Assembly (NCBI GenBank): GCA_905182335.1
Contig: CAJJBE010000003.1
Span: forward strand, 248,001-312,000
Length of the DNA stretch: 64,000 nt
Reading direction: 5' to 3'
Source of the DNA: Flavobacteriales bacterium UBA4466
Lineage (GTDB): Bacteria > Bacteroidota > Bacteroidia > Flavobacteriales_D > Crocinitomicaceae
Translations under genes and position numbers: made by a program
The notes under the pieces: generated by a model
The model's input: only the letters and a program-made list of their open reading frames with translations
Database searches by the model: none
Told to the model about the DNA's origin: nothing
Shown: one piece after another, positions 971-6,804 of the stretch
How positions within the stretch are numbered: the first letter of the stretch is position 1
Layout: each line of letters starts with the position of its first letter

Positions 971-978
971 TATCTTTG
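971..978 (+). promoter_or_regulatory. Predicted -7 promoter element for the B12 operon
   Basis: TATCTTTG is a perfect match to the Bacteroidota -7 consensus TAnnTTTG. It lies 5 bases before the first stem of the cobalamin aptamer, so transcription would begin almost exactly at the riboswitch. I cannot find a clear -33 TTG at the usual spacing, so the call rests on the -7 element and its position. Confidence 0.5.
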
Positions 979-982
979 ATTC

Positions 983-1141
983 GACTTTTGGTTCACGGGG
1001 TGAATAATAAGGAATCTGGTGTAAATCCAGAACTGTATCTGCAGCTGTAAGCACTTAAAGTCGGTTTGTTATACCACTGTCCTCAGAGTAGGATGGGAAG
1101 GTCAAACCGATATGGTGTGAGTCAGAATACTTGCCAAAGTC
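983..1141 (+). promoter_or_regulatory. Cobalamin (AdoCbl-class) riboswitch aptamer
   Basis: The conserved blocks appear in order: GGTGTAAATCC near 1018-1028, GCAGCTGTAAGC near 1041, CCACTG near 1074, ATGGGAAGG near 1093, and GAGTCAGAATAC near 1119. The ends close by a P1 helix, GACTTTTGG (983-991) against CCAAAGTC (1134-1141) with one bulged T. Downstream, TATGTGC/GCGCATA (1180-1197) can form a 7-bp hairpin, and AAAGTC (1166-1171) repeats the 3' half of P1. Both are candidates for the expression platform. The element sits in the 307-base gap before a surface-protein and TonB-receptor operon, so it should repress that operon when cobalamin is plentiful. Confidence 0.93.
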
Positions 1142-1248
1142 ATATTTTAAAGAAGACTTCAGAATAAAGTCGGATTTAGTATGTGCTGCAGCGCATATCA
1201 TTTCTCTTTCCTGATTTTTTCAACGTTTTATACTATTAATTAATTACG

Positions 1249-2235
1249 ATGAAGAAAATTTACTTATTATCTACTGCTCTAATGCTTGGGGTAGCTTTAA
1301 AAGCACAGCAAACCATTGATTTTGAGTCTTTTAGCTTAGATTTCGAATCATATGATAACGACTCTGATGGTAATGGGGCTTTTATCTTTGAGTCTTTTCA
1401 AAATGAGATTAGTTTTTTGAATGTTTATGATACTCAGTGGGGCTCATGGGCTGGTTATGCAATCTCAAATGTTACGGACACGATAACTTCAGGATATAAT
1501 AATCAGTATAGTGCATTTACAGGAGGTGGACATGACGGTTCCTCAAATTATGCCATGGGTTATCAATTTGGTTCTATTACTTGCGATAATGAATACCAAT
1601 CTATAGTCTCTATTGAAATAACAAATGCTACATACACTGCTATCTCCATGAGAGATGGTGATGAATACGCGAAAAAATTTGGATCTTTTAATGATGCAAA
1701 TGGATTAGATGACGGAACCAATGGTGAAGATTTTTATCGTATTTGGGTTTATTGTGAAGATTTTTCAGGAGTAAATAAAGACAGTATAGAGGTGTTGTTG
1801 GCAGATTATCGTTTTACTGATAATACACAAGATTATATTGTGAAAGATTGGAAAAAAATTAATATTTCTCAGGAAATTAATTTTCCTGTAAGCAAAATTA
1901 CATTCTCACAAGAGTCAAGTGATAATGGAGACTTTGGTATGAATACTCCGGCATATTATGTTCTTGATGATGTTGTATCTGTAATGGATCCCTCTATGAG
2001 TATAGCTCAAAATAAGTTTTCAGAACTCTCGGTGTACCCTAATCCTGTAAAAGATAGATTAAAAGTTATAGGAGAAAGTGGAATACTCACTTTAACTGAT
2101 TTAAGTGGTGATGTAATTCTTTCACAAGAGCACAGTGAAGTCTCAAATGTAGATTTTTCTGATTTGAGCAGTGGAATTTATCTTTTAAGTGTTACCAATA
2201 AAAATGGTAAATTCTCTCATAAAATTGTCAAATAA
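1249..2235 (+). CDS. DUF4465 protein with T9SS type A sorting domain
   Basis: This is the first gene after the riboswitch, 328 residues, and is probably a secreted or surface protein of cobalamin acquisition. Residues 1-20 form a signal peptide ending in KAQ. The middle matches the DUF4465 pattern: WGSWAGYAISNVTD, NQYSAFTGGG, LADYRF, then SSDNGDFGMNTPAYYVLDD. From about residue 258 a type IX secretion sorting domain begins with SVYPNPVKDRL and ends SHKIVK. DUF4465 proteins recur in Bacteroidota B12 loci. Corrinoid binding by this protein is inferred from context, not shown by a motif. A terminator-like hairpin separates it from the receptor gene. Confidence 0.85.
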   Translation: MKKIYLLSTALMLGVALKAQQTIDFESFSLDFESYDNDSDGNGAFIFESFQNEISFLNVYDTQWGSWAGYAISNVTDTITSGYNNQYSAFTGGGHDGSSNYAMGYQFGSITCDNEYQSIVSIEITNATYTAISMRDGDEYAKKFGSFNDANGLDDGTNGEDFYRIWVYCEDFSGVNKDSIEVLLADYRFTDNTQDYIVKDWKKINISQEINFPVSKITFSQESSDNGDFGMNTPAYYVLDDVVSVMDPSMSIAQNKFSELSVYPNPVKDRLKVIGESGILTLTDLSGDVILSQEHSEVSNVDFSDLSSGIYLLSVTNKNGKFSHKIVK

Positions 2236-2238
2236 ATT

Positions 2239-2266
2239 AAAAGGGGGTCTAATATCCCCCTTTTTT
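2239..2266 (+). terminator. Intrinsic terminator-like hairpin inside the B12 operon
   Basis: AAAAGGGGG pairs with CCCCCTTTTTT around an 8-base loop. It begins 4 bases after the stop of the DUF4465 gene and its T-run ends 2 bases before the ATG of the receptor gene. It has the form of a strong intrinsic terminator. If it is partly read through, the first gene would be made in excess over the receptor and the genes after it. Confidence 0.75.
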
Positions 2267-2267
2267 A

Positions 2268-4226
2268 ATGACTAAATTTCTTTACATATTTATTCTTTTT
2301 ATTTGCTCTAATTTATATGGGCAATTTGATACTATTCAACAGTTTAATGAAGTAGATGTTTTGGCTTCTCACCTTTTTTTGAAGCAGAAGTCTTTTTGTC
2401 TAGTTATAGATAGAGATGTCATAGATGCTTTACAACCAATCGATATTGGTGATTTATTGAGAAAGGTGCCAGGGACTAATTTGAGGTCATATGGTGGTGT
2501 TGGAGGATTAAAAACAGTTTCTATGCGAAGTTTAGGCGCAAATCACTCTTCAATTATTGTTGACGGTGTTCCGCTAAACAATTCACAGACTGGTCAAGTT
2601 AATTTAGGTCAGCTAATTGTTGATAACGTTGAGCAGTTAATAAGTTCAGTTGGATTAAATTCAAATTTTTTAATTCCTGTTTCAGCTCAGATTAGTGGAA
2701 GTAATTTCATGATAAAAACGATGGAAAATTCATTTTCTGAGGATACTCTTACTATTCGTGCTAATATTAATTTTGGATCTTTTGGCCAGCTTAAAGGATA
2801 CACAGCAGTAAAGTTTAATCCGGATAAGTTTTTTATTAGTGCTTTTGGATCACGGCAAAATGCTCAAGGTAATTATAGTTATTCTATACTAAATGGCTTA
2901 AGTGAATTGAGTAGAACGAGAAATAATAATAATTACTTAGATTATAATTATGGAGTGTCAGCAGGAGCGAAACTTAATAAAGGAATTTGGAAAATAGGAT
3001 ATCGGCATAAGTCAATTAAGCAAGAATTACCCGGAGCTGTTATTTTGTACAATCAAACCGCTGATGAAAGTCTAGAAACAGATTCTGATAGATTGTTTAC
3101 AGATTTTAAGTGGCGTAATAATAGATTTTATATTCGCACCTTTCTAAATGGAGCGATTGAAAAACAACGGTATTTTGACCCAACATATTTAAATAGCCAA
3201 GGATACTTAGATTATAATTACAATAATCGAAATTTAAATGCAGGTGTTTCTTTTATAAAGTATTTTGTTAAATGGAATTTTTTTGGAGGGGTTGAGCAAA
3301 CGATTTCTGATTTGATAGTTAGTGATATAACATTTGCAGAGCCTCTTCGTTACCATTCTTTCTCTATGGTCGGTGCTAGGTATAATAATTCGCTTTTTTG
3401 CTTGACAGGACAGGTTTCGGGGCAATATGTTAATGAACAAAATAATAACGGAGGGGTGCCAAAAAAACGAGTTCGTGTTAATCCGTTTATAAGTCTAAAA
3501 ACTAGGGGCTTTGGGGGAGATTCCGAATTAGAATTATGGTATCGTAATTCTTTTAGAATGCCTTCTTTTAATGAGTTGTATTATAATAATATTGGTAATT
3601 TAAATTTATTACCTGAGGATGCACACCAAACAAACCTTGGCTTTTTATGCTCCCGTGTTAACCCTAAAATCAATTTAGATTTTAAATCTTCTATTTTCTT
3701 TAATCATATAAAGAATAAGATTGTTGCTATTCCAACAAAGAATTTATTTGTTTGGTCTATACAAAATGTAGGGAGAGCAAATACGTTCGGAAGTGAGCTT
3801 CAATTTGATTTTAAATTTAACATAACAGATTCTTGGAAATTAGCTTTGAGTACAAACTATACTTACCAAAAAACAATTGATGTTACAGACCCATATTCAC
3901 CAACATATCTAAATCAAGTAGCCTATATTCCTGAGCATACAGCAAATGCGGACGTTACTTTTAATTTTCAGAAAACCGGCATTCGTATTTCGAGCTTTTA
4001 TGTATCTAAAAGATACGCACTTAACGAAAATATTATATCGAATCAATTAGATGGCTTTTTCTTGATGGATGTGAGTATGTTTCAAACATTCACAATTAGC
4101 TCCTCTCAAGAGTTAAAATTAATAGGGAATGTGAAAAATATATTAAATTCTTCTTATGCCTATGTTCGATCCTATACAATGCCTGGTGTCAATTATTCAA
4201 TATCTTTAAGTTATGCGTTTAATTAG
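2268..4226 (+). CDS. BtuB-like TonB-dependent cobalamin receptor
   Basis: This 652-residue outer-membrane receptor is probably the channel for cobalamin uptake. A signal peptide (about residues 1-18) is followed by FNEVDVLAS, a plausible TonB box, and by a plug domain with DLLRKVPGTNLRSYGGVGG and SIIVDGVPLNNSQTGQVNL. The barrel carries RMPSFNELYYNNIG followed by LNLLPEDAHQTNLGF, and the last strand ends SLSYAFN. There is no carboxypeptidase-like N-terminal domain, which fits the short BtuB type. It lies under the cobalamin riboswitch and overlaps the next gene by 14 bases. Substrate is inferred from the riboswitch and the BtuG-like neighbour. Confidence 0.88.
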   Translation: MTKFLYIFILFICSNLYGQFDTIQQFNEVDVLASHLFLKQKSFCLVIDRDVIDALQPIDIGDLLRKVPGTNLRSYGGVGGLKTVSMRSLGANHSSIIVDGVPLNNSQTGQVNLGQLIVDNVEQLISSVGLNSNFLIPVSAQISGSNFMIKTMENSFSEDTLTIRANINFGSFGQLKGYTAVKFNPDKFFISAFGSRQNAQGNYSYSILNGLSELSRTRNNNNYLDYNYGVSAGAKLNKGIWKIGYRHKSIKQELPGAVILYNQTADESLETDSDRLFTDFKWRNNRFYIRTFLNGAIEKQRYFDPTYLNSQGYLDYNYNNRNLNAGVSFIKYFVKWNFFGGVEQTISDLIVSDITFAEPLRYHSFSMVGARYNNSLFCLTGQVSGQYVNEQNNNGGVPKKRVRVNPFISLKTRGFGGDSELELWYRNSFRMPSFNELYYNNIGNLNLLPEDAHQTNLGFLCSRVNPKINLDFKSSIFFNHIKNKIVAIPTKNLFVWSIQNVGRANTFGSELQFDFKFNITDSWKLALSTNYTYQKTIDVTDPYSPTYLNQVAYIPEHTANADVTFNFQKTGIRISSFYVSKRYALNENIISNQLDGFFLMDVSMFQTFTISSSQELKLIGNVKNILNSSYAYVRSYTMPGVNYSISLSYAFN

Positions 4227-5268
4227 TATTCTCTTTTTATCAGTATCCTTAGTTTCTTGTAAAAAAGAGAAGCCTCAAGTAGATATTTTAGCAGATGTTC
4301 TTAAAAATGGAACAGTGGTGCTGTGTGAAGGTTTATTTCAGCAGAATAATTCATCTTTATCTTGGATCGATAATAATTCGATGAGTAGCTCTAATAACTT
4401 GTTTGTTTCTAAGTCTGGAAGACACCTAGGAGATACGGGTAACGATATTAAACGATATGGCTCTAAGGTGTATGTTATTGTAAATGTTTCAAGTACAATT
4501 GAAGTTATTGATGCAACAACATTTACATCAATTAAGCAAATATCAATGCAAAATGGTGGGATTTCTAAGCAGCCAAGAAATATAGAGTTTTACGATGGAA
4601 GTGCATACGTAACATGTTATGATGGATATGTAGATGTTATCGACACAATTTCGCTAGAAGTCACAGAACGTATAGCTGTTGGTTTAAATCCTGAAGATTT
4701 AACTATTTCAGGTAGTAAGTTGTATGTTTCTAATTCAGGAGGATTGAATACACCAGTAATGGACTCTACGGTTTCTATTATTGATTTAAACTCAAACACT
4801 GAGATTAAAAAATTAACTGTAGGATTAAATCCAAGTAGGTGTATTACTGATAATGAAGGGAATGTGTATATAGTATCTAGAGGGAATTATGCAGATATTC
4901 CTTCTAGAATGATTAAGATCAATGTGACTTCAGACGTCGTTGAGAGTACATTTGATTTTGAGGTCTCAGGAATCACTAAAATGAATGATAAGTTCTTGAT
5001 TTCATATTATGACTTTTCTTCAAATCAATCCAGTTTAGGTTTATTTGACCCTGTTTTAGATGCTATAATTAATTATTATTTTATAGATGTATCATTCCTA
5101 TCAACCATATATGGTGTAGCATATAATTCATATTCAAATACAATTTTCATTAGTGATGCAATGGGGTTTGTCAATTCAGGATATGTATATGAGTATACAA
5201 CTTCCGGAACTTTAGTTTCGAGGTTTAATGTTGGTTTAAACCCCTCTAAATTTTTATTCTATGAATAG
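4213..5268 (+). CDS. BtuG-like beta-propeller lipoprotein (YncE/DUF5074 type)
   Basis: The protein has 351 residues and a lipoprotein signal with lipobox LVSC (Cys16). After it come repeated beta-propeller blades, visible as the recurring units YVIVNVSSTIEVIDATT, VDVIDTISLEV, VSIIDLNSNTEI and VGLNPS. The early stretch VVLCEGLFQQNNSSLSWID and LGDTGNDI are typical of the DUF5074/YncE group. In gut Bacteroides the related BtuG sits on the BtuB receptor and captures cobalamin with high affinity. Here its gene overlaps the receptor gene by 14 bases, which supports the same partnership. The Cys is followed by KKEK rather than acidic residues, so I do not assert surface export from the signal alone. 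Confidence 0.85.
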   Translation: MRLISILFLSVSLVSCKKEKPQVDILADVLKNGTVVLCEGLFQQNNSSLSWIDNNSMSSSNNLFVSKSGRHLGDTGNDIKRYGSKVYVIVNVSSTIEVIDATTFTSIKQISMQNGGISKQPRNIEFYDGSAYVTCYDGYVDVIDTISLEVTERIAVGLNPEDLTISGSKLYVSNSGGLNTPVMDSTVSIIDLNSNTEIKKLTVGLNPSRCITDNEGNVYIVSRGNYADIPSRMIKINVTSDVVESTFDFEVSGITKMNDKFLISYYDFSSNQSSLGLFDPVLDAIINYYFIDVSFLSTIYGVAYNSYSNTIFISDAMGFVNSGYVYEYTTSGTLVSRFNVGLNPSKFLFYE

Positions 5269-6226
5269 ATTTTTACTTTTTGCGCTTGGAATGTTTTCTT
5301 ACTTTTCACGGAGTCAATCATTTGCTCCTGCACCAGGTAATATAGGTTCAACTGCTATCTATTCCGATTCATCAATTATTATTGATTGGGCTTCTGAGGT
5401 TCTTGTTAATCGAGGTTCTATGAACATACTAAATCCTAGTGCAGGATTAGCAAGTTTCGGTGAAGATTCTGATGCTATTGGCATTGCAACTGGTTCTCAA
5501 GTCGTTTCTTTGGGTGATGGTGGAGAAGCTATAGTGACATTTAATGAGGCTATCGTCAATGGTATAGGTCCCGATTTTGCAGTATTTGAAAATGGCTTTA
5601 CAGATGATTATATTGAGTTGGCTTTTGTTGAGGTGAGTTCCGATGGGAGTAATTTTTTTCGATTTGATGGTATAAGTGAGACTCCTATCGATGTTCAAAC
5701 TACAAATTTCACATTTACAGATTGCCGATATATCCACAACCTTGCTGGTAAATATAGGTTTGGTTATGGTACACCTTTTGATTTAGATGAGTTAGCAGGT
5801 ATACAAGGTTTAGATATTAATCATATAACTCATGTAAAGATTATTGATGTGATTGGAAGTATTGATTCCTTTACAGGGACTCAAGATAGCCAAGGGAATA
5901 TAATTAATGATCCATTTCCTACAGAATATGAAACAAGTGGTTTTGATCTTGATGCAGTTGCTGTTATTCATAGTGAAACTGAAGGAATTAATGAGTTAAA
6001 TGATGTGGAAGTTAATGTTTTTCCTAATCCATCTCAAGGAGTTTTTACTATTAAGACTGACCAAGAATTAAGTTACTCAATTTGTGATTTGCAGGGTAGA
6101 GCTATTCTTTCTGGAACTATTAGTGACGTTTATCAATTAGATATGATGAATTTTGAATCAGGAGTCTATTCAATACGATTTAATTCCATATTTTCGACAT
6201 TATCAATTCAATTAATATTGAAATAA
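5261..6226 (+). CDS. T9SS-sorted surface protein of the B12 operon, function unknown
   Basis: The protein has 321 residues with a signal peptide (1-19). The central region, about residues 20-240, has the conserved-looking blocks GPDFAVFENGF, ELAFVEVSSDGSNFFRF and NLAGKYRFGYGTPFDLDEL. I recognise these from unnamed bacterial cell-surface proteins but know no function for them. A type A T9SS sorting domain starts at VFPNPSQGVF (about residue 252). The gene overlaps the BtuG-like gene by 8 bases and its stop overlaps the next start by one base, so it is translated with the cobalamin-uptake genes. A role in binding or presenting corrinoids at the surface is inference. Confidence 0.8.
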   Translation: MNRFLLFALGMFSYFSRSQSFAPAPGNIGSTAIYSDSSIIIDWASEVLVNRGSMNILNPSAGLASFGEDSDAIGIATGSQVVSLGDGGEAIVTFNEAIVNGIGPDFAVFENGFTDDYIELAFVEVSSDGSNFFRFDGISETPIDVQTTNFTFTDCRYIHNLAGKYRFGYGTPFDLDELAGIQGLDINHITHVKIIDVIGSIDSFTGTQDSQGNIINDPFPTEYETSGFDLDAVAVIHSETEGINELNDVEVNVFPNPSQGVFTIKTDQELSYSICDLQGRAILSGTISDVYQLDMMNFESGVYSIRFNSIFSTLSIQLILK

Positions 6227-6804
6227 TGGACCACTTATCAAAAGAGTTTTGGAGTCTGCGTTATCAAAATAAAGAGACAGGATGGGATATTGGTGAGATT
6301 TCTACACCAATTAAAGCTTACTTTGATCAAATTGAAAATAAAGAGATTAAGGTGTTGATTCCAGGATGTGGCTATGGACATGAAGCAGAATATTTATTTA
6401 AATCTGGATTCTCTAATGTACACATTATCGATATAGCTCAAGAGCCACTGATTCGGTTTAAAGATCGCAACAAAGATTACCCAAGGGTAAATATTCATTT
6501 AGGTGATTTGTTTACGCATAATGGCTCATATAATCTTATTATAGAACAGACTATGTTCTGTGCAATAAATCCTTTTTTGCGTCAAAGTTACGCAGATAAA
6601 ATCAATAGTTTATTGAAGCCTCAAGGAAAAATGATAGGCGTCTTGTTTAATCGAGAATTTCAATATGGTCCACCTTATGGAGGTACAAAAAATGAGTATT
6701 TAGTTTATTTTAAAAAAAAATTTAGTGAGGTAATGATAGAGGAGTGCTACAATTCAATAGAGTCAAGAGATAACAGTGAATTTTTTATTAAAATGATAAA
6801 GTAA
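6226..6804 (+). CDS. TPMT-family SAM-dependent methyltransferase
   Basis: The protein has 192 residues and no signal peptide, so it is cytoplasmic. The SAM-binding motif I is VLIPGCGYGHEAEYL (about residues 43-57). The later block EQTMFCAINPFLRQSYADKI followed by FQYGPPYGG is characteristic of the thiopurine S-methyltransferase family, which methylates S, Se, Te or halide acceptors. Its ATG shares one base with the stop of the surface-protein gene, so it is the last gene of the riboswitch operon. Why a methyltransferase should be co-regulated with cobalamin uptake is not evident from the sequence. Confidence 0.85.
   Translation: MDHLSKEFWSLRYQNKETGWDIGEISTPIKAYFDQIENKEIKVLIPGCGYGHEAEYLFKSGFSNVHIIDIAQEPLIRFKDRNKDYPRVNIHLGDLFTHNGSYNLIIEQTMFCAINPFLRQSYADKINSLLKPQGKMIGVLFNREFQYGPPYGGTKNEYLVYFKKKFSEVMIEECYNSIESRDNSEFFIKMIK

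Follow-up and report, generated by a model that had tools for sequence, protein, structure and literature searches.

The locus described here raises the question of whether an operon behind a cobalamin riboswitch, which encodes two proteins with sorting tails of the type IX secretion system (T9SS), serves to capture vitamin B12 at the cell surface, and what part the second of these proteins, here called P5, would play in it. B12 is limiting for many aquatic and soil bacteria, and the literature that we found on its surface capture deals almost entirely with gut Bacteroides. The window (the whole stretch of 64,000 nucleotides that was analysed) holds the following features.

971-1152, plus strand: cobalamin riboswitch aptamer (RF00174, 96.4 bits, full length)
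1179-1198, plus strand: hairpin 3' of the aptamer with a weak T run (terminator-like scan; RNA fold of 1130-1260, z -1.55)
1249-2235, plus strand: BtuJ (DUF4465) with a T9SS sorting tail and the loop motif MNTPAYY (PF14717, Por_Secre_tail)
2243-2265, plus strand: terminator-like GC-rich hairpin with a T run in the btuJ-btuB gap (terminator-like scan)
2268-4226, plus strand: BtuB, TonB-dependent cobamide receptor (8blw_A, 5.9e-77)
4213-5268, plus strand: BtuG, beta-propeller lid and putative lipoprotein (8blw_B, 3.1e-64; DUF5074)
5261-6226, plus strand: P5, the second T9SS protein, BtuH-related (Por_Secre_tail; profiles, fold, neighbourhood)
5315-5986, plus strand: 224-residue domain of P5 (residues 19-242) without a Pfam name (profile and fold comparisons)
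6226-6804, plus strand: TPMT-like methyltransferase (PF05724, TPMT, 81.3 bits, 1.1e-22, cut-off 26)

The aptamer match spans model positions 1-189 of 189 (E 9e-23; gathering score 31.5), and no other RF00174 match in the window reached that score. The complete aptamer upstream of the genes that the earlier note had described is thereby confirmed. The gene order given there (DUF4465, BtuB, BtuG, T9SS protein, methyltransferase), with overlaps of 1 to 14 bases from the receptor onward, was also borne out, the open reading frame list giving overlaps of 14 (BtuB/BtuG), 8 (BtuG/P5) and 1 base (P5/methyltransferase). The hairpin that follows the aptamer is possibly its expression platform. A second hairpin, between btuJ and btuB, was absent from the earlier note. 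Folding of 21 btuJ-btuB gaps, a set that left out 10 further family loci, produced hairpins of -14 kcal/mol or below in five of them, and the hairpin was missing from a locus of the same genus (L180); with 5/21 gaps only, its interpretation as a conserved expression tuner was rejected.

The DUF4465 domain (PF14717) of the first protein scored 146.6 bits (E 1.3e-42; Pfam cut-off 25) and its C-terminal Por_Secre_tail 46.5 bits (E 4.6e-12; cut-off 27). Its sequence matched the solved DUF4465 structures 9hmu (1.2e-13), 9qpm, 4jqr and 9i2l, and the NTPAY motif of the HI loop, with the binding tyrosine, is present as MNTPAYY, aligned to MNTPSY/MNTASY of the solved members. This protein (IPR027828) is BtuJ, and cobalamin binding is predicted for it from its sequence. 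The signature IPR026444 is one which we take to be the T9SS sorting domain. Its occurrence as a C-terminal targeting signature on 229 of 824 DUF4465 sequences has been reported in print. DUF4465 proteins are BtuJ proteins, measured B12 binders that include one of Fluviicola taffensis (PMC12751083, PMC13398666), so that the statement that only BtuB, BtuG and BtuH have been studied as surface B12 proteins is out of date. The Fluviicola protein (F2I9N3, 'Fluta'), with B12 binding shown, comes from a species assigned to Crocinitomicaceae by NCBI, and the terms T9SS, type IX and secretion system are absent from the main text on it (PMC13398666).

As for the receptor and its lid, a sequence search of solved structures returned B. 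theta BtuB1 (8blw_A) as the best match of BtuB, in which the TonB plug scored 49.9 bits (Pfam cut-off 23.9); the protein lies below the cut-off of the NCBIfam equivalog TIGR01779 (96 versus 599.7 bits). BtuG matched BtuG1 best (8blw_B, residues 18-349), with propeller similarity over the full length and a DUF5074 score of 38.4 bits (Pfam cut-off 27.2). Its gene adjoins btuB through the overlap, and a putative lipobox, SLVSC followed by KKEK, was recognised by eye.

The fourth gene product, P5, carries a Por_Secre_tail as well (37.8 bits, E 2.3e-9; Pfam cut-off 27). The proposal of a riboswitch-run operon for surface B12 capture with two T9SS-tailed proteins is supported. The domain of P5 has no family in Pfam or NCBIfam, and a sequence search of the PDB with P5 hit the tail only, while a profile gave two matches (E 0.18 and 0.77). 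Strong P5 matches were found in 112 of 346 sampled Bacteroidia genomes, about a third. The tail was detected at E <=0.01 in 72 of 81 P5 proteins, and versions with PEP-CTERM occur in Verrucomicrobiota and Phycisphaerae. An alignment of 61 sequences contains 31 invariant positions and an NDP(W/Y/F)PT loop in which one position is always aromatic. What is new in this operon is P5, a member of a widespread family without a Pfam name; most of the other parts of the operon are known from gut bacteria.

A structure model of the P5 domain (pLDDT 94.3) was compared with the PDB by Foldseek. The top three matches were BtuH2 (7biz_B, 7biz_A) and BtuGH (8blw_B), at E 1.1e-3 to 2.9e-3 and query TM 0.41-0.47; no match in the PDB reached E 0.001, the best one (1.1e-3) having a query TM of 0.45 and an rmsd of 9.3. 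A viral fold library gave one match to P5 below E 0.001, a Mimiviridae SD-repeat protein. Mostly CBM32 and discoidin-type folds ranked directly and closely below BtuH, as would be expected if P5 bound a companion of the cobamide (a carrier protein, a glycan or a corrinoid fragment) and not the intact vitamin. We consider this very unlikely, since the B12-binding domain of BtuH2 itself shows a similar likeness, to the alginate lyase AlyQ, which was judged unrelated to its function (PMC8941943).

Profile comparisons also connected the two domains. hhalign aligned P5 with the BtuH domain over about 50 columns, the core only (probability 72, E 3.3e-5), with a score of 40.5 where none of 30 column shuffles scored above 20.2, and the core motif LG(D/G)xGG...DF.(V/I)..N.F is common to both. 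The P5 profile matched 5 of 11 BtuH-domain open reading frames at E <=0.003 and missed the other six; the BtuH profile matched two of the 2864 frames of P5 loci, both of them P5, and missed 79 of the 81 P5 frames. The positions facing BtuH2 Asn399 and Phe401 are kept in 61/61 and 56/61 P5 sequences, and that of Gln333, in a low-confidence alignment, is Q in 31/61 and N in the P5 of the window. No P5 counterpart of the BtuH2 corrin contacts His476, Tyr510, Trp511, Trp577 and Leu578 was established by alignment. The contact positions were rejected as proof of B12 binding by P5, since superfamily members with no BtuG or BtuJ in their vicinity (L165, L167, L169, L171) carry this Asn and Phe too. 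The core likewise is no proof of it, since it is also found in secreted surface proteins without a BtuG or BtuJ match nearby, as well as in large repeat proteins. P5 lacks the lipoprotein signal of B. theta BtuH and has a T9SS tail instead; given this, the core-only alignment and the corrin contacts not found, it was not classed as a plain BtuH. Strong P5 matches were found in none of eight BtuH genomes, and weak ones in two (G475 and G481); at the loci examined from these two, the gene that the P5 profile picks up is that of BtuH. Mutual exclusion of BtuH and P5 was rejected as too weak, the probability of 0/8 by chance being 0.04 even without phylogeny. Most likely, P5 is a putative cobamide binder that stands in BtuH's place, its domain being distantly related to the one by which BtuH binds B12.

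The link of P5 to B12 genes was analysed within family f1, which comprises 66 of the 199 genomes of the order by our own count; BtuB co-occurrence was judged inside this family, the BtuB of the window being too diverged a query elsewhere. BtuB was present in 44 of the 66 genomes, 43 of which also have P5 (the exception is G100) and 37 BtuJ, and none of the 22 genomes without BtuB has P5. P5 lies less than 6 kb from BtuB in 39 of the 43 genomes; in the other four the two are unlinked, with a riboswitch near one of these four. The order BtuJ-BtuB-BtuG-P5 was conserved in 29 of 30 same-family loci, which had been picked by BtuJ and BtuB positions. It was also seen at 10 of the 80 P5 loci taken from named records (the best 80 of 513), at least two of the 10 being the same records as family genomes. 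Among these best 80 of 513, BtuG or BtuJ lies within 3.5 kb on the same strand in 63 loci, and 17 have no BtuB, BtuG or BtuJ within that distance on that strand. These 17 loci and the four unlinked family genomes would suit a generic T9SS protein whose B12 linkage is incidental, a notion that is hardly credible against the co-occurrence of 43/44 versus 0/22, the fusions with BtuJ in both orders, the riboswitch loci without another btu match and the PEP-CTERM versions in other phyla. The fusions join P5 and BtuJ in one frame in six proteins, with BtuJ first in L106, L108, L115 and L129 and P5 first in L091 and L172; a Bacteroides-type frame (L147) joins a BtuH domain to BtuJ. Sixteen P5 loci had no BtuB, BtuG or BtuJ match in the stretch examined (shorter than 9 kb in four). 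A cobalamin riboswitch lies upstream on the same strand in eight of them and was not found in the remaining eight, against 0/9 at loci of P5 superfamily relatives. At another locus (L135), cobT and cobS are found downstream of P5.

The loci with a riboswitch and no other btu match also bear on the idea of P5 as a surface protein under B12 control that binds no cobamides itself and acts on the capture complex as a scaffold, an anchor, or a vesicle or release factor. The model for it is BtuL of B. theta, which belongs to a riboswitch operon, does not bind cobalamin and promotes vesicle release (PMC12751083), and the core of P5 belongs to a broad surface superfamily that includes proteins without BtuG or BtuJ at the loci read. 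We nevertheless regard it as unlikely: at the former loci P5 follows the riboswitch with none of the partners found, and the 31 invariant positions in 61 P5 sequences, the always-aromatic position of the NDP(W/Y/F)PT loop and BtuH as the best fold argue against it.

The methyltransferase fared differently from the four genes before it. It comes after P5 in the window, and this arrangement was seen at 4 of 20 family loci, at none of 10 further ones (4/30) and at 6 of the 80 named P5 loci (best 80 of 513). Of 150 order genomes, 83 have relatives at E <=1e-20, which lie beside P5 in only three of them (G000, G149, G133). A part in B12 capture was thus rejected, the gene being common in the order and seldom beside P5, and it is probably a co-transcribed bystander. 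The five-gene order proposed as a unit therefore holds for BtuJ-BtuB-BtuG-P5 and not for the fifth gene.

To our knowledge, gut Bacteroides have no T9SS. B. theta locus 1, btuK1-btuK2-btuH1-btuB1-btuGH-btuJ1 (PMC12751083; structures 8blw for BtuB1G1 and 9fct for BtuJ1), shares with the window riboswitch control, BtuB with a BtuG lid, a DUF4465 BtuJ and a BtuH-superfamily domain. In the window, however, BtuJ and P5 bear T9SS tails in place of the lipoprotein signals of their counterparts, btuJ comes first, and the BtuH-like domain forms a protein of its own, shorter and diverged. The B12-binding domain of BtuH2 (7biz) and P5 are connected by best fold match, core motif and the same operon neighbours; P5 has 224 residues compared to about 250-310 in the BtuH2 domain and, unlike BtuH2, neither PKD or propeller partners nor a lipoprotein signal.

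The operon is thus probably a T9SS form of the BtuJ/BtuB/BtuG cobamide capture of Bacteroides, with P5 as the likely BtuH-like cobamide binder. The analysis demonstrates its anatomy and gene order, the co-occurrence, the fusions, the riboswitch linkage, the core homology and the fold ranking; surface location, B12 binding by P5 and hand-over are the parts that we infer. Under B12 scarcity, the unoccupied aptamer would allow expression of btuJ-btuB-btuG-P5, judging from the known regulation of its family. BtuJ and P5 would be exported by Sec, followed by the type IX system, to the cell exterior, where both may bind scarce cobamides and pass them on to BtuG, the lid of BtuB. Import by BtuB would draw on TonB energy, and genes outside the operon would supply the BtuC-like permease, ATPase and binding protein that carry the cobamide into the cytoplasm, to serve methylmalonyl-CoA mutase and IcmF. 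A BtuC-like permease locus is present in the host genome, and both enzymes score above NCBIfam cut-offs there.

Beyond this operon, we lean slightly towards the view that P5 is a widespread secreted cobamide-binding family of which BtuH is the specialised relative in gut Bacteroides, one that would use the sorting route of its host (T9SS in Bacteroidota, PEP-CTERM in Verrucomicrobiota and Phycisphaerae) and stand as a single riboswitch-controlled gene in some genomes. Additional B12 surface proteins can be sought through their linkage to riboswitches. Should P5 prove to bind cobamides, a capture protein that has no Pfam name would be added to about a third of the sampled Bacteroidia genomes (112/346), and the origin of BtuH would become traceable.

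The 64-kb window contains a single Rfam match at gathering score, a complete cobalamin aptamer followed by five genes. The complete aptamer, the five same-strand genes, the two T9SS tails and the overlaps of 1 to 14 bases described in the earlier note were all recovered by ORF, Rfam and Pfam analyses, the overlaps from BtuB onward being of 14, 8 and 1 bases.

Features of the operon region
6-941: ORF, 3' end of a TonB receptor gene, at the start of the window and directly before the riboswitch
971-1152: complete cobalamin aptamer (Rfam, 96.4 bits), same strand as the five genes
1249-2235: DUF4465 protein (BtuJ) with T9SS tail, same strand as the aptamer
2243-2265: strong hairpin followed by T's, between the DUF4465 and BtuB genes
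2268-4226: BtuB, same strand as the aptamer
4213-5268: BtuG-like protein, same strand as the aptamer
5261-6226: second T9SS protein (P5), same strand as the aptamer
6226-6804: methyltransferase, same strand as the aptamer

Given the hairpin and its T's, the DUF4465 product may be made in excess over the rest of the operon. Hairpins of -14 kcal/mol or stronger were present in 5 of 21 compared btuJ-btuB gaps, and none was found in that of L180, a locus from the same genus. L062, L064, L065 and L067 likewise have a TonB receptor gene upstream of btuJ. A flavobacterial transcriptome study describes a TonB receptor preceded by a cobalamin riboswitch (PMC9723704).

Most parts of the operon have known counterparts. 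The window DUF4465 protein matched the solved DUF4465 structures 9hmu (1.2e-13), 9qpm (5.7e-11), 4jqr (6.5e-9) and 9i2l (3e-6), and it contains the loop motif MNTPAYY. The best solved-chain matches of the window BtuB and BtuG were B. theta BtuB1 and BtuG1. We take IPR026444 to be the T9SS signature and IPR013424 the PEP-CTERM signature. According to PMC12751083, IPR026444, a C-terminal targeting signature, is carried by 229 of 824 DUF4465 sequences and IPR013424 by 88; a BtuJ tailed in this way was thus already published in outline. PMC13398666 and PMC12751083 name the B. theta DUF4465 members BtuJ, place the conserved B12-binding tyrosine in an NTPAY-type loop and show B12 binding for eight members; the statement that in gut Bacteroides only BtuB, BtuG and BtuH had been studied as surface B12 proteins is thus out of date. 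One of the eight is from Fluviicola taffensis, a member of the Crocinitomicaceae in NCBI taxonomy. The BtuG lid, and a suggested loading of BtuG by BtuH, are described in PMC10404256.

The proposed five-gene order held for its first four genes: BtuJ-BtuB-BtuG-P5 was kept in 29 of 30 loci of f1, the window's own family, that were chosen by their BtuJ/BtuB positions (the exception being G109). The methyltransferase stands after P5 in the window as well as in 4 of these 30 loci and 6 of the 80 named P5 loci. Methyltransferase relatives (E 1e-20 or better) were found in 83 of 150 same-order genomes and adjoined P5 in three of them; being common in the order and seldom beside P5, this gene was discarded as a system member and is taken for a bystander.

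By our count, f1 comprises 66 of the 199 sampled genomes of the same order. Co-occurrence was judged within f1, since the window BtuB query is too diverged for genomes outside it. BtuB was present in 44 of the 66 genomes; P5 accompanied it in 43 (G100 being the exception) and was not found in the 22 genomes without BtuB, counts which are not independent events because f1 genomes are kin. BtuJ was found in 37 of the 44, and the P5 gene lay within 6 kb of BtuB in 39 of the 43; in the four genomes where it was unlinked, an upstream riboswitch was matched once, weakly (33.6 bits, gathering 31.5). Of the 22 genomes with neither a BtuB nor a P5 match, 21 still carry a cobalamin riboswitch.

Among the 80 named P5 loci (the best 80 of 513, a choice that favours near relatives), 63 encode BtuG or BtuJ on the P5 strand at a distance of up to 3.5 kb; this neighbourhood case is based on BtuG and BtuJ because the BtuB profile also matches other TonB receptors. 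Fusions of P5 and BtuJ occur in five named loci, BtuJ leading in four and P5 in one, and also in L172, again with P5 leading. A BtuH domain (residues 40-304) is likewise fused to BtuJ (327-545) in L147, from a Bacteroides-type genome. In L135 the two genes after P5 are cobT and cobS.

Sixteen P5 loci, four of them on stretches under 9 kb, had no BtuB, BtuG or BtuJ match within the stretch covered (L103 was left out, its btu genes being on the opposite strand about 4 kb off). A same-strand cobalamin riboswitch lay upstream in eight (L081, L090, L131, L086, L105, L109, L132 and L136) and was not found in the other eight, nor in nine loci of P5 superfamily relatives (a tenth, L166, being left out). 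Another gene separates riboswitch and P5 in L086 and L109, and in L136 the riboswitch opens a 2137-residue frame that includes the P5 domain. Co-occurrence, gene order, BtuJ fusions, riboswitch linkage and the cobT/cobS neighbours place P5 in B12 biology; the four f1 genomes with an unlinked P5 and the eight of these 16 loci without a riboswitch match speak against it.

In two Verrucomicrobiota records (L109:8651-10741 and L086:794-2901) the riboswitch comes first, next a gene for a PEP-CTERM protein, and then P5, itself PEP-CTERM-tailed. The proteins encoded between riboswitch and P5 are 71% identical to each other and propeller-like by eye; neither gave a Pfam domain beyond the tail, and that of L109 had no PDB match. 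This arrangement is possibly a parallel capture system. In 14 of the 80 P5 loci an ORF with a weak BtuG-profile match (177-261 bits) immediately precedes P5 (L069:379-1692, L083:8639-9934 and 12 further loci within L062-L141). The one checked, from L069, has a T9SS tail, to which its PDB matches are confined, so that T9SS-sorted propellers are a guess for these ORFs.

The 224-residue P5 domain of the window matched no Pfam family, and among 61 members any one family was hit at most twice, never at an E better than 0.003; 31 positions are invariant across these 61 sequences. P5 was matched at E 0.001 in 82 of the 199 order genomes and in 130 of 346 Bacteroidia genomes, 112 of them strongly (E 1e-35 or better). 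Por_Secre_tail was found in 72 of 81 P5 proteins and PEP-CTERM in three. PEP-CTERM-like ends can be recognised in L134 (Phycisphaerae) and in two loci from records titled as Verrucomicrobiota, L086 and L109. No description of P5 was found in a mainly open-access body of literature, bioRxiv preprints excluded, on BtuB, BtuG/BtuH, DUF4465, the cobalamin riboswitch and T9SS, which included passages of PMC6143338 and PMC12578637.

An AlphaFold model of P5 built from the 61 sequences (mean pLDDT 94.3, pTM 0.92) had as top three Foldseek matches in the PDB 7biz_B (BtuH2), 8blw_B (BtuGH) and 7biz_A, at E 1.1e-3 to 2.9e-3; mostly carbohydrate-binding and discoidin-type domains followed from E 3.9e-3. 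For profile comparison, BtuH domains were taken from Bacteroides-like genomes, one being verified against the PDB (8blw_B 3.1e-55, 7biz_A 1.3e-28). Alignment of both profiles with hhalign gave probability 72, E 3.3e-5 and a score of 40.5 over 50 columns, compared with at most 20.2 among 30 column-shuffled controls. In 991 ORFs the P5 profile recovered five of the 11 that hold a BtuH domain, at E 2e-6 to 0.003, and missed six; the BtuH profile gave two matches in 2864 ORFs of the P5 loci, both P5, and missed 79 of the 81 P5 ORFs. As judged from these comparisons, P5 and the BtuH domain appear to be distantly related.

The shared core also occurs in secreted proteins without a nearby BtuG or BtuJ match and in large repeat proteins, so kinship alone is no proof of B12 binding. 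Large secreted proteins with this core were observed in L176, L177, G200, G244, G278, G307, G334 and G357; eight of eight scored candidates per genome matched it, and the L176 and L177 loci showed neither a BtuG nor a BtuJ match. We regard the core as a broad surface-domain superfamily with P5 as a branch lacking a Pfam match. PMC8941943 gives eight B12 contacts for BtuH2, all of which map exactly onto the PDB chain. Opposite the two contacts in the core, Asn399 and Phe401, P5 has conserved residues that the other relatives read also share, and the corrin contacts fall outside the region of confident alignment.

In the proposed mechanism, the riboswitch, seen as a complete aptamer, would control the operon, and BtuJ and P5, to judge by their tails, would be exported by T9SS. 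BtuJ would capture B12, as proven for other DUF4465 members, and P5 probably does so too. By homology, BtuG would act as lid and BtuB as receptor, and gene content suggests a FecCD permease with its ATPase and binding protein for the inner-membrane step: the sole FecCD permease gene found in the UBA4466 assembly adjoins genes for both, and its best score was to the BtuC model, under its cut-off. Captured B12 would be used by methylmalonyl-CoA mutase and IcmF, which both score above their cut-offs; the genome, 92% complete, yielded no Met_synt_B12 domain. At L216 (C2:515800-518200) it also encodes a CarH-like regulator of the MerR type that scores under the CarH cut-off and has a B12-binding_2 domain. 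Taken together, the operon encodes B12 capture of a type that is largely understood, here in a T9SS context; P5, its unexplained component, is a new candidate surface B12 protein open to testing.
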